A model generated the notes under the pieces. The model worked only from the letters and a program-made list of their open reading frames with translations. It was not told the DNA's origin and searched no databases. 64,000 nt of DNA. Source: Rhodocyclaceae bacterium (GTDB taxonomy: Bacteria; Pseudomonadota; Gammaproteobacteria; Burkholderiales; Rhodocyclaceae). Below, piece by piece: positions 50,049-60,942 of this stretch (position 1 is the stretch's first letter; each line of letters starts with the position of its first letter). The stretch spans positions 88,605-152,604 of the forward strand of contig JAGRGB010000028.1 in the NCBI GenBank assembly GCA_020445745.1, in the 5' to 3' direction. Position numbers and translations under genes: made by a program.

Positions 50049-50139
50049 GCGCGGCACGGCGGATCGGCGGGGCATCAATCGGCGGCCTTCGGGGCCGCGA
50101 AGACCGGCGTCGCGCGACGGCGATGGTGCATGGTCGGCG

Positions 50140-50607
50140 GTGGCCGGGCCGGTTTCGATCTCCGCGGTGCCCACCGGGGCGTGCAGGCTGTTAGGCGATC
50201 ACCCGGCGATGCCGCAGGGGATCGACGAGTTCGCCGCCGGGGCGGTGAGCCGTGCGCGGGCTGGAGCGCTGATGCGCCATCGCCCGGTGCGCGGCGGGGA
50301 TGGCTGCCACGGCCCGGGTCCGGGCCACAATTGCGAAACCTCAGCAGCGGTCGGCGCGGCTTGCGATGTCGTCATCCGGCCGTCCGTCGGGCGCATCGGG
50401 CTGTTCGCGCCCACCGACATGATGGCGGTTCGCCACCTGCCGGGCCCCGGGTCGGTCAGCCTCGACCTGCAGCAACTGCTCGACCCCGACGACGGCTGCC
50501 GGGCCGCCCGGGTGCGAGGCTTCCCCGGCGCGGTCGGCTACCCGGTGGCCGGAACATGCGAGACCTGCCGGCAGCCCGGCCGCCGCGGCGATCGGATCAT
50601 GTCTTGA
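50140..50607 (+). CDS. Hypothetical protein, uncertain gene
   Basis: A 155-codon frame in the space between trpE and the chemoreceptor. I recognise no family. From about 50200 on, the third codon positions are strongly G/C and the translation has balanced composition ([33 protein letters not shown]), unlike the arginine-rich alternative frames, which argues for coding. It has several cysteines including a CETC pair near the C-terminus. The start is unclear (GTG at 50140 or 50164, ATG at 50206), with no good ribosome site. The end overlaps the convergent chemoreceptor gene by 11 bases. Confidence 0.38.
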
Positions 50608-52225
50608 AGCGGGCGATCTCGGTCTTCAGGTCCGCCGCCAGTCTCTCCAGTGCGGTCGCTGCCTCGGTCGCCTGATCGATGGAGTTGGCGGTCTTTCGGG
50701 AAAGATCGGCAATCTGCTCGACGCTGCCGGCCGCGTCGCTGCTGCTCTGGCGCTGCTCGTCCGTTGCCAGGGCGATGTCGTCCATGCCTTCGGAGACACG
50801 TCTGGCGGTGGCCATGTTCTGCTTCAATCCCTCGGCGACGCGCCCCATCGCCTCTCGGATCTGGCGCAGCGACTCGACGCCGCGGCTGATCGACTGATTG
50901 ACCTGGATCGATCCATCGTTGAGGTTGCTGGTCACCTGTTCGATGTCGCTGGCCGAGCGGGCCGACTTCTCGGCCAGCTTGCGCACTTCGTCGGCCACCA
51001 CCGCGAAGCCCCGTCCGTGTTCGCCGGCACGCGCCGCCTCGATCGCGGCATTGAGCGCGAGCAGGTTGGTCTGGTCGGCGATCTCCTTGACCTCGCCGGT
51101 CATCCGCGCGATTGCATCGGTGTGGTGGATGAAGTCCGCCACCGTCACGGTCATCAGCTCGACAGCCGACTCCACGTCGTGCAGACGCCCGGTGAGCTCG
51201 GTGACGTCCTGATTGCCTTCGCGGGCGCGGTCGAGGCTGGAACGGGCCAGTTCGAGCACGTCGCCGCTCGATTTCGCGACCGAGGTGATGTTGACCGCCA
51301 TCTGCTCCATCGCCGATGCCGCGGAAACCGAACGGTCCGATTGCTCGGTCGCGGTCTCTCGAACGTCACGAGTATTGTGCTGGAGCGCGGTCGCGGCGCC
51401 GGCGACCGCGTTCGACGATTGCGCGACGCGGCCGATGACGCCCTGCAACTTCTCCATCATCTGGTTGAAGTAGGTCGACGCCTCGCCGACCTCGTCCTTG
51501 CCGCAGACCGGCAGGCGCTGGGTCAGGTCGCCCTCGCCCGACGCGATGTCGCGGAGCCGCCCGGCCATGATGCGCAGCGGCGCCGACACCGCCCGCTGTA
51601 CGAGCACATAGATCGACAGCAGCACGACACCGAGAACACCCATCGTGGCGCCTGCCAGCTTGGCGCCGGAATTGTCGACGGCGGCCATCGCCCGGTCCAG
51701 CTTCACTTCCATCGTGACGGCGCCGAGCACGGTTCCGACCGGGTGTTCGTCGTGGCATTCGGTGCAGTCCTTGCCGAGATAGTCGGTCTGGTTGATGGCC
51801 GGAAAGACCGCCTTCAGGACTTCGCCACGGCTCTCGTCGCGACGTACCTCGAAGAACGGCCGCGAGGTCTGCTCGACGATCCTCTCGTCGGTTCCCACGT
51901 CCATCTCGTCCGGGTCGCCATCGCCGAACTGGGAAACCACCGGCTCGAAGCGCACCACCTTGAGGTCGGCGACGCCGCTGGACTGCTTGATCTGGTCGAG
52001 ATAGATGGCGCGCTTGTTCATCTTCTTGACCGACTTCATGAAGACCAGGGCGGCCATCGTCTGCTGGTTCGTCGTCTCGGCAAAGGCGCGGGACTGCTCG
52101 ATCGCCAGCTCCCGTTGTTCGGCCGCCACCCAGGCCACCAGGCCGACACCGGCCGCGAGCAGCAGCAGTCCGATGACAAGCATCAGCCGAACCCAGATCC
52201 GGGTATTGCGAATTCGTTCGATCAT
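50597..52225 (-). CDS. Methyl-accepting chemotaxis protein with periplasmic c-type haem motif
   Basis: A 542-residue chemoreceptor. Membrane segments at about 12-34 and 190-210 enclose a periplasmic domain of some 155 residues that contains one CXXCH haem-attachment motif, CTECH (residues 154-158; bases 51752-51766). HAMP follows, then the MCP signalling hairpin whose tip reads [20 protein letters not shown] and [16 protein letters not shown]. There is no C-terminal pentapeptide for CheR/CheB docking. A covalently bound haem suggests redox, oxygen or nitric oxide sensing; related haem-PAS receptors are known from Geobacter. It diverges from the cytochrome/porin genes at 52491-56657. Confidence 0.88.
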
Positions 52226-52490
52226 CGGAATTCCACCGTCCGTTCTCGGGCAGCCGTCGACGTGCCGCTAGCGCTTTCAAGACCTGGAAGTTCTACGGAC
52301 CGCGGGCGTGAAAATTGAGACTTTCCTTGTATTGCCAAAGCGATAGGCCGGCGTCATGGCGAGTGCCTCAAGGTTTTCCGCCGCGCTGCCGTACTTGAAC
52401 GTCGGGATCTTCGAACACCACACCAGGCCGGCGCCGGCGAGGGGCGGCACGGAGCCGGATTCGCCGCCGGCCGGCCTTCGGGAGCGACCG
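52226..52490. other. Divergent intergenic region between chemoreceptor and cytochrome genes
   Basis: 265 bases separating the two start codons. Around 52310-52345 it becomes A/T-richer (TGAAAATTGAGACTTTCC, TTGTATTGCCAAAG). TTGAGA at about 52315 could be a -35 box, but I find no matching -10, no sigma-28 site for the receptor and no clear operator. Confidence 0.4.
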
Positions 52491-52820
52491 ATGAAACGCC
52501 TTGTCCTTGCCTGCTGCCTCGTCTTGCCGCTGTTTCTGGCCGCGCCCGCTTCGGCCATCGATGCGGCGGCCGCCGACGCCCTGGTGCGCAAGAGCAAATG
52601 CATGACCTGCCATCACAAGGTCAAGGAAAAGGACGGTCCGCCGTTTGCAGAGACGGCAGCAAAGTATCGCGACAAGCCCGAGGCGATCGACAAGCTGACC
52701 AAGCACGTGACCGTGCCGAGCAAGGTCAAGGTCGACGGCGAGGAGGAGGACCACGAGACCCTCCGCACCGATGACCCGGCTGCGGTCAGGAACGTCGTGG
52801 AGTGGATTCTCTCGCTCTGA
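52491..52820 (+). CDS. Small periplasmic monohaem cytochrome c (MtoD-like position)
   Basis: A 109-residue precursor: signal peptide MKRLVLACCLVLPLFL...ASA, then a mature chain of about 87 residues with one haem site, KCMTCHHKVKEKDGP. The end NVVEWILSL is the usual C-terminal helix of class I cytochromes. The only methionine of the mature chain lies inside CMTCH, so the normal distal Met ligand is absent; a histidine (KHVTV or DHETL) is a candidate. It is likely the soluble electron carrier between inner membrane and the decahaem protein. GGGAG six bases before the ATG. It is first in the cytochrome/porin group. Confidence 0.87.
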   Translation: MKRLVLACCLVLPLFLAAPASAIDAAAADALVRKSKCMTCHHKVKEKDGPPFAETAAKYRDKPEAIDKLTKHVTVPSKVKVDGEEEDHETLRTDDPAAVRNVVEWILSL

Positions 52821-52913
52821 AGATGTCGTCCGTGCCGCCGAACCCGAGGGCCGGCCAGGGAACCGCAAGCGGTTGGTCGCGGCGGCGGCCAACCCGATTC
52901 CAGGAGGATCTGA

Positions 52914-53879
52914 ATGACCGTACTGCGTTCCGCAGCACTTTCACGAATCGTCTTCGTCATGGGCCTCCAGGCATTGGCGGCCGGCATGCCGGCCGACCTG
53001 CAGGCCCGGGAGGTCCATGACGTCTACATCGACGGCGACAAGGTCTGTACGCGGTGTCACGACGAAAACGAATTCAAGCCGCTGCTGTCGATCGCGCAGA
53101 CCCGGCACGGCACGGCCGCCGATGGTCGGGCGCCGAACTGCGTCAGTTGCCACGGCAGCAGCGAAAGCCACATCAACAAGCCCAAGGGCGCCGGCAGGCG
53201 GCCGGAGCCGACGATCAATTTCGGCCGCCGCTCGGGGACGCCGGTCGTCGAGCGCAACCGCGTGTGCATCGCTTGCCACCAGGGCGGCAAGTTCATTCAC
53301 TGGCAGGGCAGCCAGCATTCGGCGGCCGACGTCGAGTGCGGTGGCTGCCATACCATGCACAGCGCCCACGACAAGGTGCGCGACGCTGCGACGCAGCCGG
53401 AAGTGTGCATCGACTGCCACAAGGAGAAGCGCAGCGAGATCAACCGGCCCAACCATCATCCGCTGCGCGAGGGCAAGATGGCCTGCTCCAACTGCCACGC
53501 ATCCCATGGCAGCGCCGGCGACAAGCTGATGCTGCGCGACACCGTCAATGACACCTGTTACACCTGCCATATGGAAAAGCGCGGCCCGACCGTGCGAACC
53601 CACCAGCCGGTCGCCGAGAACTGCGCGATCTGCCACAACCCCCACGGCAGCGTGAACGACAATCTGCTGCGCCAGCGCCCGCCGCTGCTGTGCCAGCAGT
53701 GTCACGAGCCCACCGGCCACCGCGGGGCCATCCCGGGATTCGGCGACAGCCGCGGCAGCTTCAACTCGACATCGGGCATGGGGGCGACACAGGGCCGGGC
53801 CTGCCTGAACTGCCACACCAACATCCACGGGACCAACAATCCGGTCGACATTTCCAACGAGCGGACATTCCGCCGCTGA
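52914..53879 (+). CDS. Decahaem c-type cytochrome, MtrA/DmsE/PioA family
   Basis: A 321-residue precursor with a signal peptide ending near LQAREVHD and ten CXXCH motifs: CTRCH, CVSCH, CIACH, CGGCH, CIDCH, CSNCH, CYTCH, CAICH, CQQCH and CLNCH. The family blocks PNCVSCHGSSESHINKPKG, ACSNCHASHG and CAICHNPHGS are those of DmsE/MtrA proteins, which thread through an outer-membrane porin and carry electrons across it. AGGAG lies seven bases before the ATG. The porin partner gene follows after 17 bases, so the two form the transmembrane conduit. Confidence 0.94.
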   Translation: MTVLRSAALSRIVFVMGLQALAAGMPADLQAREVHDVYIDGDKVCTRCHDENEFKPLLSIAQTRHGTAADGRAPNCVSCHGSSESHINKPKGAGRRPEPTINFGRRSGTPVVERNRVCIACHQGGKFIHWQGSQHSAADVECGGCHTMHSAHDKVRDAATQPEVCIDCHKEKRSEINRPNHHPLREGKMACSNCHASHGSAGDKLMLRDTVNDTCYTCHMEKRGPTVRTHQPVAENCAICHNPHGSVNDNLLRQRPPLLCQQCHEPTGHRGAIPGFGDSRGSFNSTSGMGATQGRACLNCHTNIHGTNNPVDISNERTFRR

Positions 53880-53896
53880 TCGAGGGAGGCCACGAC

Positions 53897-55927
53897 ATGA
53901 ATCAGTACAAGATGCGCCGCGTCCTTCGGGCATCGGCAGCGAGCATGACGGTGGCTGCGTGCCTTGGCGCGCAGGCCGCCGACGACGACATCGACGAAGT
54001 GGTGCACCGGCTGATCACGCCGGCCAGCCAGGTGTCCTTCGGGCTGGGCTACCTGTTCGACGACAACATGCGCTTCGGACAGTACACCGGGCTCAACCAG
54101 CGCGGTGCGTCGGCAGCGCTCGACGTCGATATCCGCCGACGGGACGACGACAGCGGCACCTGGTGGCTCGTCAGCGGGCACGACCTGGGCCGCGATTCGC
54201 GGGACCTGCGCGTCGAGCATGCCCGCCAGGGGGCGTGGCGTTACTACATCGAGTACGCCGAACTGGTCCGTCACTCCCAGTACACGGTCAATACCGGTCT
54301 CGCCGGCGTGGGCACGTCGAGCCTCACCGTCGACGGCACCGCGCTGCGCGACGTCGATCCGCGCACCCGGCGCAAGAGCCTGGCGCTGGGCTTCGCCCAC
54401 AGCCTGCCGGCCGGTTGGGACCTCAGCATCCGGTTCAAGAACGAAGAGAAGGACGGTACGCGGCTGTTCGGCCGCGGCACCCCTGGCAGCCAGCAGTGGC
54501 TCGCCGAACCGATCGACCACACGATGCAGCAGGTGGACGTGATCCTCGGCTTCACCGGCGAACGTTTCCAGATGCAGACCGGCTACTACGGATCGTTCTT
54601 CCTCAATCGCCACCAGGCGCTGGGGATCGACGACCCGGCCGGGGATCCGAGCAATTTGCGCGACATCGCCTCGTTCTCGCCGATCGGTCTGCCGCCCGAC
54701 AATTACGCGCACCAGCTCTACGTCACCGGCGGCTACGACTTCACGCCGAGCACGCGTGGCACGTTCAAGGTGTCGCGCGCGCGGGCGGCCCAGGACGACC
54801 GCTTCTTCGTCGACCCGGCGCCGGGCATCACCGCCAACAGCCTCGACGGGCAGGTCGATACGACGCTGGTGCAGGCCGGCGTCACGGCCCGGCCGACCCC
54901 GGCGCTGTCCTTGCTGGCCAATGGTCGGTACCTGAACCGCGAGGACGACACGCCGATCCGGCAGTACTTCGACGAGGGCGGAAGTACCTACGATGGCCGC
55001 AACGAGCCGCGCTCGCTCAAATCGAAGGTCGGCAAGCTCGAGGGTACCTACCGCCTAGGATCGGGCATCGGCATTACCGGGGGCGTCGACTACGAGCTGC
55101 GCGAACGCAACACCTCGCCGCTGCGCGTCGTCAGCTTCCGCGAGGAGACCGAGGAGCGGGGCGTGCGTGTCGCCTTCAAGCGCATGATGTCCGAGACGGT
55201 CAATGGCACGCTGCTGCTGCAAAGGTCCTGGCGCGACGGCTCCGACTTCGCCACCAATCTGCTCGCCGATGGCTCGGAGGGCAGCAACCTGGTGGCACCG
55301 ATTCATCTGGCCGATCGCGACCGCGACAAGATCCGCCTGACCGGCGACTGGACGCCGACCCGGGACCTCGCGCTGCAGGGCATGGTCGAGTTCACCAGTG
55401 ATGACTACGGCGGCCGCGAACTGGGGCCGCGCGAAGGCGCCTCGCAGATGTTCGCCCTGGACGCGAGCTATGCCTTCGACGACTTCTGGAAGGGCACGGC
55501 CTGGGCGCAGCGCGGCGAAACCCGCCTCGAACAGGACAGCCTGAGCGGCGGCAGCACCTGGACCGCCCGGACTCGCTACAAGGATCGCGCCTTCGGACTC
55601 GGCGTCCGCGGCACTGTCGGCGACAGGCTGGAACTGGGTGCCGATTTGTCGGAATCCCACAGCGACGGCATGTTCCTGTTCTCGTCCGTCGACCAGACGG
55701 CGGAATCGCTGCCGGACGTCGGTTACCAACTGCAGTCGGTCAAGGTCTATGGCAAGTACCGCGCGCGTGCCGATTTCACGATGCGCCTGGACCTCGTCGC
55801 CGAACGCTGGACGACGAACGACTGGCAGTGGGCGGACTACGTCTATTCAGACGGCACCACGCTGTCCCAGGACGAAGACCAGAATGTCGTGTTCGTGGGG
55901 GTGATGGCGATCATCGGCTGGCGTTGA
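53897..55927 (+). CDS. MtrB/PioB-family outer-membrane porin
   Basis: A 676-residue outer-membrane beta-barrel precursor. A signal peptide ends near LGAQAADDD; the rest is alternating hydrophobic/hydrophilic strands with many Tyr, Trp and Arg, typical of the large barrel that sheaths an MtrA-type decahaem cytochrome. Recognisable family features: FGLGYLFDDNMRFGQYTGLN at the mature N-terminus, repeated GxDY/YxL strands and a closing strand ending MAIIGWR. The CXXC pair near the start of Shewanella MtrB is not present. GGGAGG seven bases upstream supports the ATG at 53897. Confidence 0.92.
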   Translation: MNQYKMRRVLRASAASMTVAACLGAQAADDDIDEVVHRLITPASQVSFGLGYLFDDNMRFGQYTGLNQRGASAALDVDIRRRDDDSGTWWLVSGHDLGRDSRDLRVEHARQGAWRYYIEYAELVRHSQYTVNTGLAGVGTSSLTVDGTALRDVDPRTRRKSLALGFAHSLPAGWDLSIRFKNEEKDGTRLFGRGTPGSQQWLAEPIDHTMQQVDVILGFTGERFQMQTGYYGSFFLNRHQALGIDDPAGDPSNLRDIASFSPIGLPPDNYAHQLYVTGGYDFTPSTRGTFKVSRARAAQDDRFFVDPAPGITANSLDGQVDTTLVQAGVTARPTPALSLLANGRYLNREDDTPIRQYFDEGGSTYDGRNEPRSLKSKVGKLEGTYRLGSGIGITGGVDYELRERNTSPLRVVSFREETEERGVRVAFKRMMSETVNGTLLLQRSWRDGSDFATNLLADGSEGSNLVAPIHLADRDRDKIRLTGDWTPTRDLALQGMVEFTSDDYGGRELGPREGASQMFALDASYAFDDFWKGTAWAQRGETRLEQDSLSGGSTWTARTRYKDRAFGLGVRGTVGDRLELGADLSESHSDGMFLFSSVDQTAESLPDVGYQLQSVKVYGKYRARADFTMRLDLVAERWTTNDWQWADYVYSDGTTLSQDEDQNVVFVGVMAIIGWR

Positions 55928-55994
55928 CGGGGTGCTGCCGTGGTCCGGCCGTCGCCGGCGGATGGTGCGGCATCACGCGAACGGAAACTGGCGA

Positions 55995-56657
55995 ATGGAC
56001 ACTGTGGCCGACAAGGCGGGCGATGATGGCAACCGGCGGCGATCGCCGCCGGCGCGAGGCGAGAAGACCGAGCTCGTCTGGGATCGCGTCGTCCGTCTGG
56101 GTCACTGGAGCCTGGCAGGCTGCGTGAGCTATTCGATGTTCGCCGAGCCGGACTTTCCCGGCCACGACATCTCCGGCTACGTCATCCTCGCGATCGTTCT
56201 CTGGCGCTGGGTGTGGGGATTCGTCGGTTCGCCGTACGCCCGCTTTCGGGCCTTCGTCTATTCGCCCGGCGAAACCCTGCGCTACATGCTGTCGGCGTTT
56301 CGCATGGGTGAGGCGCGAGAGTACTCGAGCCACAATCCGATGGGGGCGTTGATGGTCTTCGCGCTGCTGGTGTTCCTGCCGGTGACCTGCGGGCTCGGCA
56401 TCATGCTGCTGGCGGCACAGCAGCTGGCCGGCCCGCTGGCGGGCGTGGTGCCGGTCGAATGGGATTACGACCTGGAGATCCTGCACCAGTATGCCGCCTA
56501 CGCGATCGCCGGCCTGGTCGGCGTCCATCTGCTGGGCACCGCGTGGGCGTCGTGGTGGCACCGGGAGAATTACCTGATGGCGATGATCACGGGCCGCAAG
56601 AACCGCCACAAGCGGCGCCGCAAGCGCAGCTCCGCGGCGGATCGCCGCGGACCCTGA
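55995..56657 (+). CDS. Cytochrome b561-type membrane subunit
   Basis: A 220-residue four-helix membrane cytochrome of the bacterial b561 / hydrogenase cyt-b family. Candidate haem ligands are the histidines in RLGHWSLAG, PGHDISGY, EILHQYAAY and GLVGVHLLG. The N-terminus (about 30 residues) and the C-terminus (HKRRRKRSSAADRR) are strongly basic and cytoplasmic. In this setting it would exchange electrons between quinone pool and the periplasmic cytochrome, a role filled by CymA-like proteins elsewhere. An ATG at 55962 is an alternative start. It follows the porin gene by 67 bases. Confidence 0.83.
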   Translation: MDTVADKAGDDGNRRRSPPARGEKTELVWDRVVRLGHWSLAGCVSYSMFAEPDFPGHDISGYVILAIVLWRWVWGFVGSPYARFRAFVYSPGETLRYMLSAFRMGEAREYSSHNPMGALMVFALLVFLPVTCGLGIMLLAAQQLAGPLAGVVPVEWDYDLEILHQYAAYAIAGLVGVHLLGTAWASWWHRENYLMAMITGRKNRHKRRRKRSSAADRRGP

Positions 56658-56672
56658 GGGCCCGGGGTCCGC
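56647..56672. terminator. Possible bidirectional terminator between b561 and cysteine synthase genes
   Basis: GCGGACC (56647-56653) and GGTCCGC (56666-56672) form a 7-bp stem with a 12-base loop in the 26-base gap between convergent genes. The left arm includes the last codons of the b561 gene. There is no T tract on either side. Confidence 0.35.
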
Positions 56673-56683
56673 CGCGTCACCAC

Positions 56684-57616
56684 TCAGACTTCCAGATGGC
56701 TGTAGAGCGCAGTGCTGAGATAACGCTCGCCGAAGGACGGAATGATCACCACGATCAGCTTGCCGGCGTTGGCCGGATCGGCCGCCTCCTGGAGTGCGGC
56801 CCAGACCGCGGCACCCGATGAAATGCCGACCATCAGCCCCTCTTCGGTAGCCAGCCGGCGGGCCGTCTCGAAGGCATCGTCGTTCTTGACCCGTGTCACC
56901 GCGTCGTAGATGCCTGTGTTGAGGATCGGTGGCACGAAGCCGGCGCCGATTCCCTGGATCGGGTGGGGACCTTTCTGTCCGCCCGACAGCACCGGGCTGG
57001 CGTCGGGCTCGACGGCGACGATCCGCACGCCCGGCTTGCGCTCCTTCAGCACTTCGCCGACGCCGGTCACGGTGCCGCCGGTGCCGACCCCCGAGACGAC
57101 GATGTCCACCTGGCCGTCGGTGTCGCGCCAGATCTCCTCGGCCGTGGTCTTGCGATGGATCTCGGGATTCGACGGATTCTCGAACTGCTGAGGGATGAAG
57201 TAGCGGGGATCGGACTCGGCCAGCTCCCGTGCCTTCGCGATGGCGCCACCCATGCCGTCCGGCCCCGGAGTCAGGATCAGTTCCGCGCCGTAGGCCTTGA
57301 GCAGCAAGCGGCGCTCGCGGCTCATCGTCTCGGGCATCGTGAACGCGCACTTGTAGCCGCGCGCCGCGCACACCATCGCGAGTCCGATGCCGGTGTTGCC
57401 GGAGGTCGGCTCGAGCACGATCGTGTCCGCCTTGATCTTGCCGTCCCGTTCGGCGGCGTCGATCATCGCCGCGGCGATGCGATCCTTGACGCTATGGGCC
57501 GGATTGAAGAACTCGAGTTTCAGGGCCAGCGTCGCGGGGACGTCGCTGGCGACCCGATTGAGCCTGACCAGGGGCGTGTTTCCGATCAGTTCGGTGACGT
57601 CGTTGGCAATTTTCAT
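56684..57616 (-). CDS. cysK: Cysteine synthase A
   Basis: A 310-residue PLP enzyme that makes cysteine from O-acetylserine and sulfide. It opens with [17 protein letters not shown]; the PLP lysine is in [16 protein letters not shown]. The substrate loop is [14 protein letters not shown], the phosphate-binding glycine loop [17 protein letters not shown], and [12 protein letters not shown] follows. Length and motifs fit CysK rather than the longer cystathionine beta-synthase. It converges on the b561 gene; 113 bases separate its start from the large sensor gene upstream, with nothing visible between. Confidence 0.94.
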
Positions 57617-57729: not shown

Positions 57730-60700
57730 TCAGCCGACCGCCGTCGCCAGCAGGCGTGCGATGGCGTCGGGCGTCGTCGGGCGACCGTAGAGATAGCCCT
57801 GCATCTCGATGCAGCCATGGGCGCCGAGGAAGCCGGCCTGCGCCTCGGTCTCGACGCCTTCGGCCAGCACCCTCAGGCTCAGGCTGCGGCCCAGGGCGAC
57901 GATCGCATCGACGATCGCGCGATCGTTGTCGTCCCCCGGCAAGCCATCGATGAAGCTGCGGTCGATCTTGATGGTCTGGATCGGGAGCTTCTTCAGGTAG
58001 CTCAGCGAGGAATAACCGGTGCCGAAGTCGTCCATCGACACTGCGACGCCGAGGGCCCGGATCTCGGCCAGCGTCGCGATGGAATCCTGTGCCCGATCCA
58101 GCATGTCGGACTCGGTGACCTCGATTTCGAGCTGTTCGGCGCGACAGCCGGTTTCCGCGAGGATCTCCCGCAGCATCGACACGAAGTTCGCCCGCCGCAG
58201 TTGGTGGCCGGACACATTGACGGCAACCCGCGGCGGCTCGACGCCCTGCTGCCGCCAGGCGACCATCTGCGTGCACACGCGCCGCAGGATGAACTCACCC
58301 AGCGGCACGATCAGGCCGATGCTTTCGGCGAGCGGTATGAATTGGGAAGGCGGCACCTCGCCGAGCTGCGGGTCGTGCCAGCGGGCGAGGGCTTCGATGC
58401 CGACCAGGGACCGACCTCCGTGGCGGAACTGGGGCTGGTAGGCAACGTCGATCGCGCCGTGCGACAGCGCCCGACGCAGGGCGTTCTCCATCTTCGCGCG
58501 CTGCCGCACCTGGTCGGTCTGGTCGGCCGAATAGGCCTTCACGGTGTAACGGCCGGTCTTCTTTGCCTCGTACATCGCGGTGTCCGCATTGCGGATCAGT
58601 TCGCAACTGTCGTCGCCGTCGCCGGGGAAGATGCTGATGCCGATGCTGGCACCGATGTAGAACTCGCTCCCGCCCGCCAGCAGCGGTTCGGCCAGCGCGG
58701 CGAAGATGCGGTCGGTCAGCAGATGGGCGTCGGCGGGAGAGTCGAGCCGTTCGATCAGTACGATGAACTCGTCGCCACCAAGGCGCGCGACCGTGTCGCC
58801 ATCGCGCAGCGCGGTGCCGATCCGGGTGGCCGCCGACTTGAGCACCTGGTCTCCCACCAGATGGCCGTGGGAGTCGTTGATGTCCTTGAAATTGTCGAGG
58901 TCGATGAACACCAGGCCCACCATGTGGTGATCCCGGCGCGCGCGGCGCAGCGCAAGTTCGATCCGGTCCTCGAGCAGCACGCGGTTCGGCAGGTCGGTGA
59001 GTGCGTCGTGATGGGCCATGTGCTGGAGCTTGGCCTCGTGGGACTTGATCAACGAGATGTCGGAGAAGATGCCGACGTAGTGGATCGGCTTGCCCGCCGT
59101 GTCCCGCACCGCAGAGATGTTGAGCCACTCCGGGAACAATTCGCCCGACTTGCGTCGGTTCCAGATCTCTCCCTGCCATTGCCCGCAATCGAGCAGCAAG
59201 CGCCACAGCTTGCGATAGAACGCCCGATCCTGACGACCCGAGGCCAGCCGGTTCGGGCGCTGACCGACCACGTCTTCCGGCGAGTAGCCGGTGATCGTCG
59301 TGAAGGCAGGGTTGATGCGCTCGATCACGCCGTCGGGGTCGGTGATCATGATGCCCTCCGACGTGTTCATGAACACTTCCTCGGCCAGTTGCAGGCGTCG
59401 CATGCTGCGCTGATCCGCGGTGATGTCGCGGGCCACGCCGACCAGGCCCAGGCATTGGCCATTGCCGTTGCGCACCGGCGATTTCAGCGTGTCGTAGAGC
59501 ATCTCGGTGCCGTCCGGCAGCGGCAGTGCCTGCCGATAGCGCACGCTCTCGCCCTGTTCCATCACCCTGCGGTCATGGCGTTCGATGCTCTCGGACAACT
59601 CTCGCGGCAACAATTCCGTCGCCCGGCGCCCGACGATGTCATCCGCCGCGCGGCCGAGGGCGGCGGCACAGGCGCTGTTGCAGGCCAGGATGCGCCCATC
59701 TTCGGCCTTGAAGAAGATCGAGTCGGCGGTGGCGTCGAGCAGGGTCCTCAGCATCGCCTCGCCGCGCGTCGATTTGGCGAGGAGTCGGCGGCTCTCGCGT
59801 CCCTTGCGCACCAACAGGATCAGCAACAGGCCCATCAGCGACAGCGCCACGATCGCCGTGGCAACCTGCAGCGGGTAGCGCTCGATCAGGCCCGGCTCGC
59901 GACCGAGCAGCTCGGTATCGTCGGGCAGATCGGCCGGGTCGAGGCGAAAGCCCTGCAGGGTCGGCAGATGCGCGATCGGCAGGTTCGGGCTGGCTTCGAG
60001 CACCGGCATGTGCTCGGCCGGGATGCCTCTCCAGATGTCCAGGACCCGGCGCGCAGCCTCGATGGCATGGACGCGATGGCTCATCACGTAACCGCCCAGC
60101 AGGCCTTCGCCGATGCCGTGTTCCCACAGGTGGTAGATCGGAACCGCGGTGTTCTCGCGCAACAGCGCGAGTGATTCCTCGAAGCGCTTCGGCGCACCGT
60201 CGCGGTCGAGGTAGGCGGCCAGCAGCAGGACGGCGTCGCCGGCGTCCAGGCTGCGCAGCCTGGACGCCAGCTCCTTCCAGCTCAGCTCGGTCAGCAGCAG
60301 GTGCTCGACCGCGATCCCGCCAAACGCGCCCTGCTCGGTGCGCAGCGTCGCGAGGTCGCCGCGGCCGCCCGGCGTGGCGTCGCTGACCACCCACAGGCGC
60401 TTCAGTGCGGGCTGCAGCCTGCGGGCCATGCGCACGGTCTCGGTGATCGATACGTGCTCGACGACACCGGTGATTCCGGGCCGCCCGGACTGGCGTTGTG
60501 CCGCCCGGACGTTGTTGACACCGATGAATACGGTCGGCGCGTTGCCGAACATGTCGCGCTCGCGCGTCGCCAGCTCGAATGCGGCGTCGTCCGAGACGAT
60601 CACCGCATCGTAGGGCCGGCGGGTGGACAGCTTGAAGGCCAGCCAATCCCGGTATCGCTGTCGTCCACTTTCGCCGACCAGGTGACGGGCGTCGAGGTAC

Positions 60701-60942
60701 TCCTGGTCGAGCAGCAGGCCCGGCGCATTCAGAATCGCCCGCACACCGCTCAGGATCTTCGCCGAGGTCGGAAACGACGGGTCGTACGAATACAGCAACA
60801 GGACGCGCTTGCCGTCCTGCAGCGCCGACGTCTGCGCGAGGCCGGGCGACGCGATCGTGGCGAGCCACAGCACGATCAGCGCCGCACCCAGTCCGCGCGC
60901 CGGCCGTGCCGGGCGCCGATCTTTCGCGGGAAGGTCAGCCAT
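57730..60942 (-). CDS. Hybrid cyclic di-GMP enzyme: periplasmic sensor, two PAS, GGDEF and EAL
   Basis: A 1070-residue inner-membrane protein. Signal/anchor about 1-37; a periplasmic domain about 40-350 resembling ABC-type substrate-binding proteins (VLLLYSYDPSFPTSAKILSG, YDAVIVSDDAAFELATRERD); membrane segment about 356-377; two PAS domains (about 395-515 and 525-640); GGDEF at 722-726 with an RDGD inhibitory site five residues before; EAL at 850-852 (GIEALARW), then DDFGTGYSSLSYLKKLPI and EGVET. Both catalytic domains keep their key residues, so it could make and break cyclic di-GMP, with the periplasmic ligand setting the balance. QGYLYGRP replaces the usual QGYLFSRP. Confidence 0.9.
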   Translation of the reverse strand: MADLPAKDRRPARPARGLGAALIVLWLATIASPGLAQTSALQDGKRVLLLYSYDPSFPTSAKILSGVRAILNAPGLLLDQEYLDARHLVGESGRQRYRDWLAFKLSTRRPYDAVIVSDDAAFELATRERDMFGNAPTVFIGVNNVRAAQRQSGRPGITGVVEHVSITETVRMARRLQPALKRLWVVSDATPGGRGDLATLRTEQGAFGGIAVEHLLLTELSWKELASRLRSLDAGDAVLLLAAYLDRDGAPKRFEESLALLRENTAVPIYHLWEHGIGEGLLGGYVMSHRVHAIEAARRVLDIWRGIPAEHMPVLEASPNLPIAHLPTLQGFRLDPADLPDDTELLGREPGLIERYPLQVATAIVALSLMGLLLILLVRKGRESRRLLAKSTRGEAMLRTLLDATADSIFFKAEDGRILACNSACAAALGRAADDIVGRRATELLPRELSESIERHDRRVMEQGESVRYRQALPLPDGTEMLYDTLKSPVRNGNGQCLGLVGVARDITADQRSMRRLQLAEEVFMNTSEGIMITDPDGVIERINPAFTTITGYSPEDVVGQRPNRLASGRQDRAFYRKLWRLLLDCGQWQGEIWNRRKSGELFPEWLNISAVRDTAGKPIHYVGIFSDISLIKSHEAKLQHMAHHDALTDLPNRVLLEDRIELALRRARRDHHMVGLVFIDLDNFKDINDSHGHLVGDQVLKSAATRIGTALRDGDTVARLGGDEFIVLIERLDSPADAHLLTDRIFAALAEPLLAGGSEFYIGASIGISIFPGDGDDSCELIRNADTAMYEAKKTGRYTVKAYSADQTDQVRQRAKMENALRRALSHGAIDVAYQPQFRHGGRSLVGIEALARWHDPQLGEVPPSQFIPLAESIGLIVPLGEFILRRVCTQMVAWRQQGVEPPRVAVNVSGHQLRRANFVSMLREILAETGCRAEQLEIEVTESDMLDRAQDSIATLAEIRALGVAVSMDDFGTGYSSLSYLKKLPIQTIKIDRSFIDGLPGDDNDRAIVDAIVALGRSLSLRVLAEGVETEAQAGFLGAHGCIEMQGYLYGRPTTPDAIARLLATAVG

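Follow-up and report, generated by a model that had tools for sequence, protein, structure and literature searches.

It is still unsettled how bacteria locate electron donors and acceptors that are solid or lie outside the cell. In Shewanella, congregation on minerals requires both the genes of an outer-membrane electron conduit and a methyl-accepting chemotaxis protein (MCP), and the connection between the two is not explained in the excerpts of that paper (PMC5789149; like most papers cited below, this source is quoted from excerpts). A functional precedent is available through an expression link (PMC2886065). On the conduit side, the Mtr complex of Shewanella baltica is represented by structure 6R2Q (PMC7198977), and on the receptor side crystal structures have been assigned to GSU0582 (PDB 3B47) and GSU0935 (PDB 3B42) of Geobacter sulfurreducens (PMC8396549). 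Here, we describe a locus in a 64,000-nucleotide stretch of DNA from a member of the Rhodocyclaceae (the window, G000:C145:88605-152604, where G000 is the window genome and g1 its genus), at which a chemoreceptor with a haem-c attachment motif lies beside the genes of an MtrAB/MtoAB-type conduit. A first, sequence-only reading of the window had placed five genes at 50597..56657, with ten CXXCH motifs in an MtrA-type protein and a divergent chemoreceptor carrying a periplasmic CTECH; all five genes are present at these positions, ten motifs were counted and the CTECH lies in the receptor as described.

The receptor and the conduit constitute a co-inherited unit, conserved across several genera of one family. 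A search for MtrB (PF11854) in 395 genomes of the window's family gave a match in 123, and a profile of the receptor's sensor domain matched in 246 of the same genomes at E up to 1e-5; both match lists stop short at their lower end, which makes the numbers of linked pairs given below minimum values. DNA stretches were fetched for the top sensor matches and their genes called with a simple purpose-made codon model. The strongest sensor matches coincided with MtrB genes, and the receptor adjoined an MtrA-MtrB pair in at least 15 genomes of six genera: three of g1 (G000, G140 and G194; the last two equal L004 and L005 by matching coordinates and were counted once each), eight of g45, and one each of g10 (G009), g23 (G129), g62 (G358) and g2 (G269). 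Among the g45 genomes, G044, G213 and G298 consist of 1-2 contigs. Three layouts were found. The receptor is divergent from a cytochrome-mtrA-mtrB-b561 series in g1; it lies upstream on the same strand in g45 and g10 (receptor, monohaem cytochrome, mtrA, mtrB, with a NapC/NirT tetrahaem gene before mtrA in g10); and in g23, g62 and g2 it is placed between mtrB and b561, separated from them by 4-44 bp. At random, about 0.5% of receptors would be expected near MtrB (an estimate that assumes a 4.8 Mb genome with two MtrB genes and counts 12 kb around either gene), versus 15 of the 17 fetched receptors in the clade to which the window receptor belongs. The pairing is far above chance, which becomes hard to uphold as an explanation when linkage is kept through three gene orders. 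Because the region is syntenic within g1, the three g1 genomes are weak evidence by themselves, and the eight g45 cases, being near-copies, are worth little more than one; the other genera and gene orders carry the argument.

Control regions gave a different picture. Forty other MtrB regions of the family, a selection from the listed sites spread over genera (744 kb, some shortened by contig ends), held an MCP of any kind in one case (L082, 4.8 kb from mtrA), and no gene similar to this sensor type was found in any of the 40. Among sensors of other clades in the same match list, 1 of 26 was near MtrB (L020, 809 amino acids (aa), ~5 kb from the mtrB of G358), at a conduit that also has a receptor of the linked clade; no MtrB was seen near the remaining 25 in the fetched stretches, some of which end close to the receptor. 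The profile of the linked receptors was also searched in 399 order-level, 369 class-level and 359 phylum-level genomes. No CxECH motif was found at the best locus of each of the 29 higher-scoring of the 65 matching order-level genomes (11 from the window's own family) or at six class-level loci inspected, and phylum-level matches outside the family all stayed below 80 bits. In the samples searched, the receptor-conduit linkage is known only from the window's family. The sequence-only reading had suggested a search for this neighbourhood across Betaproteobacteria, and would have called the link accidental if the receptor were near the conduit in no other genome or if its CXXCH were not conserved in close homologues: besides the window genome, 14 or more genomes of the family show the linkage, which was not seen beyond the family in these samples, and 17/17 clade members keep the CXXCH.

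The block comes and goes as a whole within the window's genus. Three of the six g1 genomes sampled (G000, G140 and G194) hold the whole set, whereas G104 and G170 show, in the same neighbourhood, trpE, a gene of 288-310 aa and cysK with none of the five genes; nucleotide similarity between the window and G104 ends at 50536 and restarts at 56684. Both of these genomes have an MtrB gene elsewhere, that of G104 belonging to an MtrC-type cluster (L118). The sixth genome, G049, has different genes on one side of cysK, no MtrB match and no clade-level receptor (best sensor match 9.2e-31). An accidental neighbourhood is ruled out by the recurrence in 15 genomes and six genera, by the sensor clade and by the absence of the block in sister genomes. 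Presence or absence as a block at one site would also be expected of a passenger gene, and every linked case was found in a single family, as it might be if a mobile or selfish cluster travelled together without functional coupling. Such a passenger should not readily keep its place through three gene orders, including a position between mtrB and b561, nor would it account for a pocket signature that the receptor clade conserves as its own, and we give this explanation hardly any credence.

The linked receptors group together in a tree, and so do their MtrA proteins, weakly for one of them. In a tree of the 43 fetched sensor domains (not of every match), the 15 linked receptors fell within one 17-member clade with support 100/99. 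In a tree of 57 MtrA proteins built by a quick method, a branch supported at 49 had all 15 linked proteins on the same side; of these, 14 group at 97% SH-aLRT, the placement of L017 being uncertain.

By profile comparison, the sensor domain reads as a distant relative of the Geobacter c-haem receptors GSU0582 and GSU0935, to which it is linked through intermediate profiles. Direct PDB searches found no relevant chain with sensor profiles A2 and A3, and none at all with one relative, which is why intermediates were used: the receptor family profile A3 reached intermediate set A5 with an hhalign probability of 97.9 over 119 columns, A5 in turn matched 3b42 across the entire domain (E 4.4e-5), and both 3b47 and 3b42 were reached from A4, another intermediate set. 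The window domain itself did not match PF21563 (class 40H sensor) at E up to 0.1; 17/30 relatives did at that threshold (best 4.1e-8), and seven of ten relatives scanned singly matched it, all under the 27-bit cut-off. Nor did the window receptor match PF11845 (sCache_heme) at E up to 0.1, a family with four matches elsewhere in the window genome; the profile comparison with PF11845 gave a probability of 95 over 39 columns with the haem motif and 51 over 28 columns with the motif removed. An AlphaFold model of the sensor (mean pLDDT 58.7, three sequences) is weak; it places the haem motif ahead of the last strand, and its top Foldseek matches include the extracytoplasmic sensors WalK, CitA and PctC (best E 1.4e-3).

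The clade is set apart by its haem pocket. In the GSU0935 crystal, one haem is held by His144 and Met60 and the other by His144 and water (PMC8396549). The receptor residue aligned to Met60, residue 64, is Lys in 17/17 clade members and Met in 55/55 other rows (54 distinct genes, L045 and L060 being an identical gene). Three residues further on, where 54/55 other rows keep a Gly, the clade members have Lys or Arg; CxECH is the form of the haem motif in 17/17 clade members and in 0/55 other rows; and an extra residue follows the motif in 16/17 clade members and in one outsider, L046 (alignment A3). As an alignment fact the Lys-for-Met substitution is firm, and Lys64 may serve as a haem ligand. 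The Lys/CxECH signature provides a marker for finding such receptors in genomes. The same pocket bears on the main rival to redox-steered taxis, namely that the receptor senses nitric oxide (NO) or another small ligand and that the linkage reflects a shared niche, for example Fe(II)-dependent nitrite/nitrate chemistry. NO and CO are bound by GSU0582 and GSU0935 (PMC8396549), and NO is also a ligand of a HAMP-module-associated sCache_heme protein, which gives no stable complex with O2 (PMC12889525). The clade, however, differs from these relatives both at the distal-ligand position (Lys for Met) and in the CXXCH spacer, so that their NO chemistry may not carry over, and NO sensing by itself does not predict linkage to mtrAB across layouts. 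We regard it as unlikely.

We propose instead that the receptor reads the state of the conduit. MtrA, seated within MtrB, would carry electrons between the outside and the periplasm; the monohaem cytochrome and, in the window genome, the b561 protein would carry them between the inner membrane and MtrA. The periplasmic haem c of the receptor would swap electrons with the conduit's periplasmic carriers, its oxidation and its spin or ligand state following how far the conduit is reduced; the signal would be relayed through HAMP to CheA and the flagella, and the cell would move along gradients that allow the conduit to run. Related Geobacter sensors switch spin and ligand with redox state: oxidised, they are predominantly high-spin, and on reduction they become low-spin and Met-bound, the midpoints being -156 and -251 mV (PMC8396549). 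Among the monohaem carriers of the Mto cluster of Sideroxydans, PmcA lies at about -143 mV (PMC13390432). The CheA domain PF02895 was present in 10/10 genomes tested. That an MtrAB/MtoAB-type conduit is co-inherited with a dedicated chemoreceptor reading its redox state is the explanation we lean towards, by a modest measure. A narrower version, a 'wire-tap' MCP clade whose haem has exchanged its Met ligand for Lys (or for a Met/Lys pair), wired to the carriers of one MtrAB conduit and steering by electron flow, we put forward tentatively. We infer haem attachment, electron exchange between carrier and receptor, and taxis. The sequence-only reading had suggested that cells steer by the redox state of this same pathway: its pairing of receptor and conduit as a unit is now supported by 15 linked genomes, and redox steering is plausible, not shown by sequence.

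Several observations weigh against reading the receptor as a conduit sensor. The neighbouring Met63, which is Met in 17/17 clade members and in 54/55 others, could be the ligand instead of residue 64, and the K/M alignment to GSU0935 passes through an intermediate profile. A search of Pfam with the window sensor domain by itself gave no match at E up to 0.1, and the structural model of the domain is the weak one described above. The Mto cluster of Sideroxydans also has MtoD, a monohaem carrier that is bis-His and has a potential of +155 mV (PMC13390432); were the potential of the window cytochrome as high as that of MtoD, a low-potential sensor haem would be kept oxidised. Characterised relatives bind NO (PMC12889525, PMC8396549). 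All linked cases belong to one family and eight of the 15 to one genus, with near-identical sensors, so that they are not independent inventions, and the receptor and MtrA trees disagree on the branching order within the linked set. Finally, two clade members are unlinked. One, in G353 (L167), lies beside a ccm operon (CcmF and CcmB confirmed) in a genome with no PF11854 match. The other, G194:C663, is a second copy in G194 that lies away from MtrB, in the vicinity of small haem-motif genes; in the tree it forms a long branch of unsure placement.

These two unlinked receptors are what would be expected if the receptor were a general periplasmic redox or oxygen sensor, independent of the conduit, and DcrA-type and GSU-type c-haem receptors have been discussed as sensors of this kind (PMC8396549). 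A general sensor leaves without cause the 15/17 mtrAB adjacency of the Lys/CxECH clade, as against 1/26 among other-clade sensors, and appears to us quite improbable. The output of the receptor could also differ from that proposed, the MCP feeding a chemosensory array that acts on surface attachment, biofilm formation or gene expression and not on swimming. The EsnABCD network of MCP, CheA and cyclic dinucleotide is required for electrode colonisation by G. sulfurreducens (PMC5585712), and 9/10 genomes tested have at least two PF02895 matches. EsnA, however, is without a periplasmic domain (PMC5585712), and in the nine linked genomes tested the PF02895 matches lie on other contigs or ~490 kb or more from the receptor, so that no dedicated array is encoded alongside; we think this output very unlikely. 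Reading of the conduit's redox state thus stays our preferred account. If true, it suggests that these cells may find their way by monitoring the electrons that they themselves exchange with the outside. Since receptor and conduit are inherited as a small unit with a defined haem-pocket signature, the question can be put to the test with a single receptor, a single monohaem cytochrome and a single conduit.

Table 1. Features of the receptor-conduit locus, in window positions.
Feature	Position	Strand	Remarks
Chemoreceptor	50597..52225	-	First transmembrane segment (TM1), periplasmic, possibly Cache-like domain with haem motif, TM2, HAMP, MCPsignal (PF00015)
CTECH haem-c attachment motif, receptor residues 154-158	51752..51766	-	CxECH in 17/17 clade members
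Lys64 codon of receptor	52034..52036	-	Aligned to GSU0935 Met60
Receptor/conduit divergent intergenic region	52226..52490		Both promoters presumably within
Monohaem periplasmic cytochrome c, 109 aa	52491..52820	+	PF00034; inside longer open reading frame 52356-52820
Decahaem MtrA-type cytochrome, ten CXXCH	52914..53879	+	TIGR03508; 6r2q chain A
MtrB/PioB-type outer-membrane porin, 676 aa	53897..55927	+	TIGR03509, PF11854
b561-type membrane cytochrome, 220 aa, conserved His set	55995..56657	+	PF01292
Five-gene block missing at same site in two sister genomes	50537..56683 vs G104; 50495-56682 vs G170		

The individual genes (Table 1) were identified as follows. Two hydrophobic segments flank the CXXCH-bearing periplasmic domain of the receptor, followed by the HAMP and MCP domains. 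The MtrA-type protein scored 267.5 bits with TIGR03508 (MtrA/DmsE family; cut-off 192.2), the porin adjoining it 358.8 bits with TIGR03509 (cut-off 240.05) and 449.5 bits with PF11854, and the b561 protein 61.1 bits with PF01292 (cut-off 30.1). The closest solved structure for MtrA was 6r2q chain A (E 8e-66); the molecule name in the search table was cystathionine beta-synthase, and the identity was taken from PMC7198977 instead. Neither an MtrC/OmcA-like surface multihaem gene nor a NapC/NirT tetrahaem of the CymA/ImoA type was found among the genes of the window cluster. The earlier statement that no MtrC/OmcA is present thus holds for the cluster and fails for the genome, where a second conduit (L028, G000:C50:1-16000) comprises a monohaem cytochrome, a NapC/NirT tetrahaem, an 844 aa MtrC-like decahaem, MtrA and MtrB, with no receptor adjoining. 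A promoter motif shared by the divergent genes was considered and dropped, conserved stretches in the region between them being merely short among the three genomes compared. At the edges of the block, the adjoining gene at 50050-50607 is shortened and apparently decayed (130 aa, with 42-50% identity to its 288-310 aa counterparts in G104 and G170), L004 and L005 having a 276 aa open frame at its position; a 1070 aa PAS-GGDEF-EAL protein (57730-60942), with a counterpart in the block-less sister genomes, adjoins cysK.

The inner-membrane partner of the conduit varied between clusters. Six of the 15 linked clusters have a b561 gene and one (L017) a NapC/NirT cytochrome; for the other eight, the fetched stretch held no recognisable gene for a b561 or a multihaem inner-membrane protein. 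The sequence-only reading had singled out a b561-type subunit in place of a CymA-like partner, which is not distinctive, only 6/15 linked clusters having one. We likewise dropped b561 as a novel element: 9/15 linked clusters are without it, and precedents exist both in the control regions, 16/40 of which encode an 8-9-haem, 650-700 aa protein with several membrane segments (in both of those tested, its C-terminus matches b561 below the Pfam cut-off), and in print, where a b561-bearing protein beside an mto operon is described (PMC5566968). Histidines suitable for binding haem are common to the b561 proteins of the window, L004, L005, L019-L021 and L099, with four His columns conserved in 10/10 and one in 9/10 proteins aligned (three from MtrB-less loci, one with its N-terminus cut). 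The monohaem cytochrome of the linked clusters has conserved His residues and no obvious distal Met, and is possibly bis-His.

Other conduits and other receptors of the family were seen in different company. By our own count, 11/40 control regions have two genes upstream on the same strand, one of 500-700 aa and one of 213-230 aa. The larger gene proved to encode a sensor kinase both times it was tested, and the smaller, tested once, a LuxR-type regulator. The receptor-less Mto-type clusters L092 (4449-7167) and L115 (4909-7109) have a sensor kinase and then a response-regulator-sized gene upstream (LuxR-type in L092). In G169 (L099 2977-12334), a receptor-less cyt-mtrA-mtrB-b561 cluster lies beside genes that resemble a ccm operon by size only; this conduit and the orphan receptor of G353 perhaps reflect one ancestral arrangement. 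At L037, L043 and L047, receptors of another clade adjoin a b561-like gene and a small gene that has a single CXXCH, with no MtrB in the stretch. At L025, L026, L033 and L048, receptors of other clades are next to or near a 370-380 aa protein with 2-3 CXXCH, perhaps a cytochrome c peroxidase. As for the direction of electron flow, a search for RuBisCO (PF00016) gave matches in 8/10 genomes at E up to 0.001, five of them above 400 bits; that of the window genome reached only 51 bits and looks like a RuBisCO-like protein. These matches left the direction undecided, as the earlier reading of the sequence had left it.

Compared with known systems, the receptor is closest in plan to GSU0582 and GSU0935, which also carry a periplasmic CXXCH sensor between two transmembrane segments, followed by HAMP and MCP domains. 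Unlike them, it has no PF21563 match, a Lys at the Met60 position and a CxECH motif, and no conduit linkage of the Geobacter proteins is mentioned in the excerpts of PMC8396549. With sCache_heme (DUF3365, Tll0287; PF11845; PMC12889525) it may share, judging by its weak model, the Cache-type order and a CXXCH before the last strand, whereas it lacks a PF11845 match and the similarity is confined to a local stretch of the profiles. SO_2240, a Cache MCP, is required together with the conduit genes MtrBC/OmcA for the congregation response of Shewanella to insoluble acceptors (PMC5789149); the excerpts of that source describe neither a haem motif nor a gene linkage for it. EsnABCD represents an MCP-type pathway needed for the use of extracellular acceptors by G. 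sulfurreducens, in which EsnA is without a putative periplasmic domain and, in the excerpts, no link to conduit genes appears (PMC5585712). A table of Gallionellaceae c-type cytochromes includes MCPs, apparently with one haem motif each, and their linkage is not stated in the part of the source at hand (PMC10734462). By title and abstract, among open-licence papers, we found no earlier report of a haem-motif receptor linked to mtrAB or mtoAB, and the word 'chemotaxis' is missing from the main text of PMC5566968, PMC8805035, PMC10654088, PMC4245776 and PMC13390432.

The conduit itself belongs with MtoAB, PioAB and MtrAB. The Mto cluster of Sideroxydans ES-1 (MtoA, MtoB, MtoD, PmcA, ImoA) shares with it a decahaem cytochrome, an MtrB/PioB porin, a monohaem carrier and the absence of MtrC from the cluster; it differs in that the clusters described here have a receptor inside or beside them and, according to genus, a b561, a NapC/NirT or no recognised inner-membrane gene. 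The monohaem cytochrome of the window recalls the bis-His MtoD of Sideroxydans, a resemblance only (PMC13390432). In the Gallionellaceae species of culture KS, Cytbc, located by the mto operon, is a b561-type protein proposed as quinone-side partner, as here, yet it is fused to a dihaem cytochrome c whereas the window b561 is free-standing (PMC5566968). Altogether, the receptor is a new variation on a known type of c-haem receptor, joined to a conduit of a known type.

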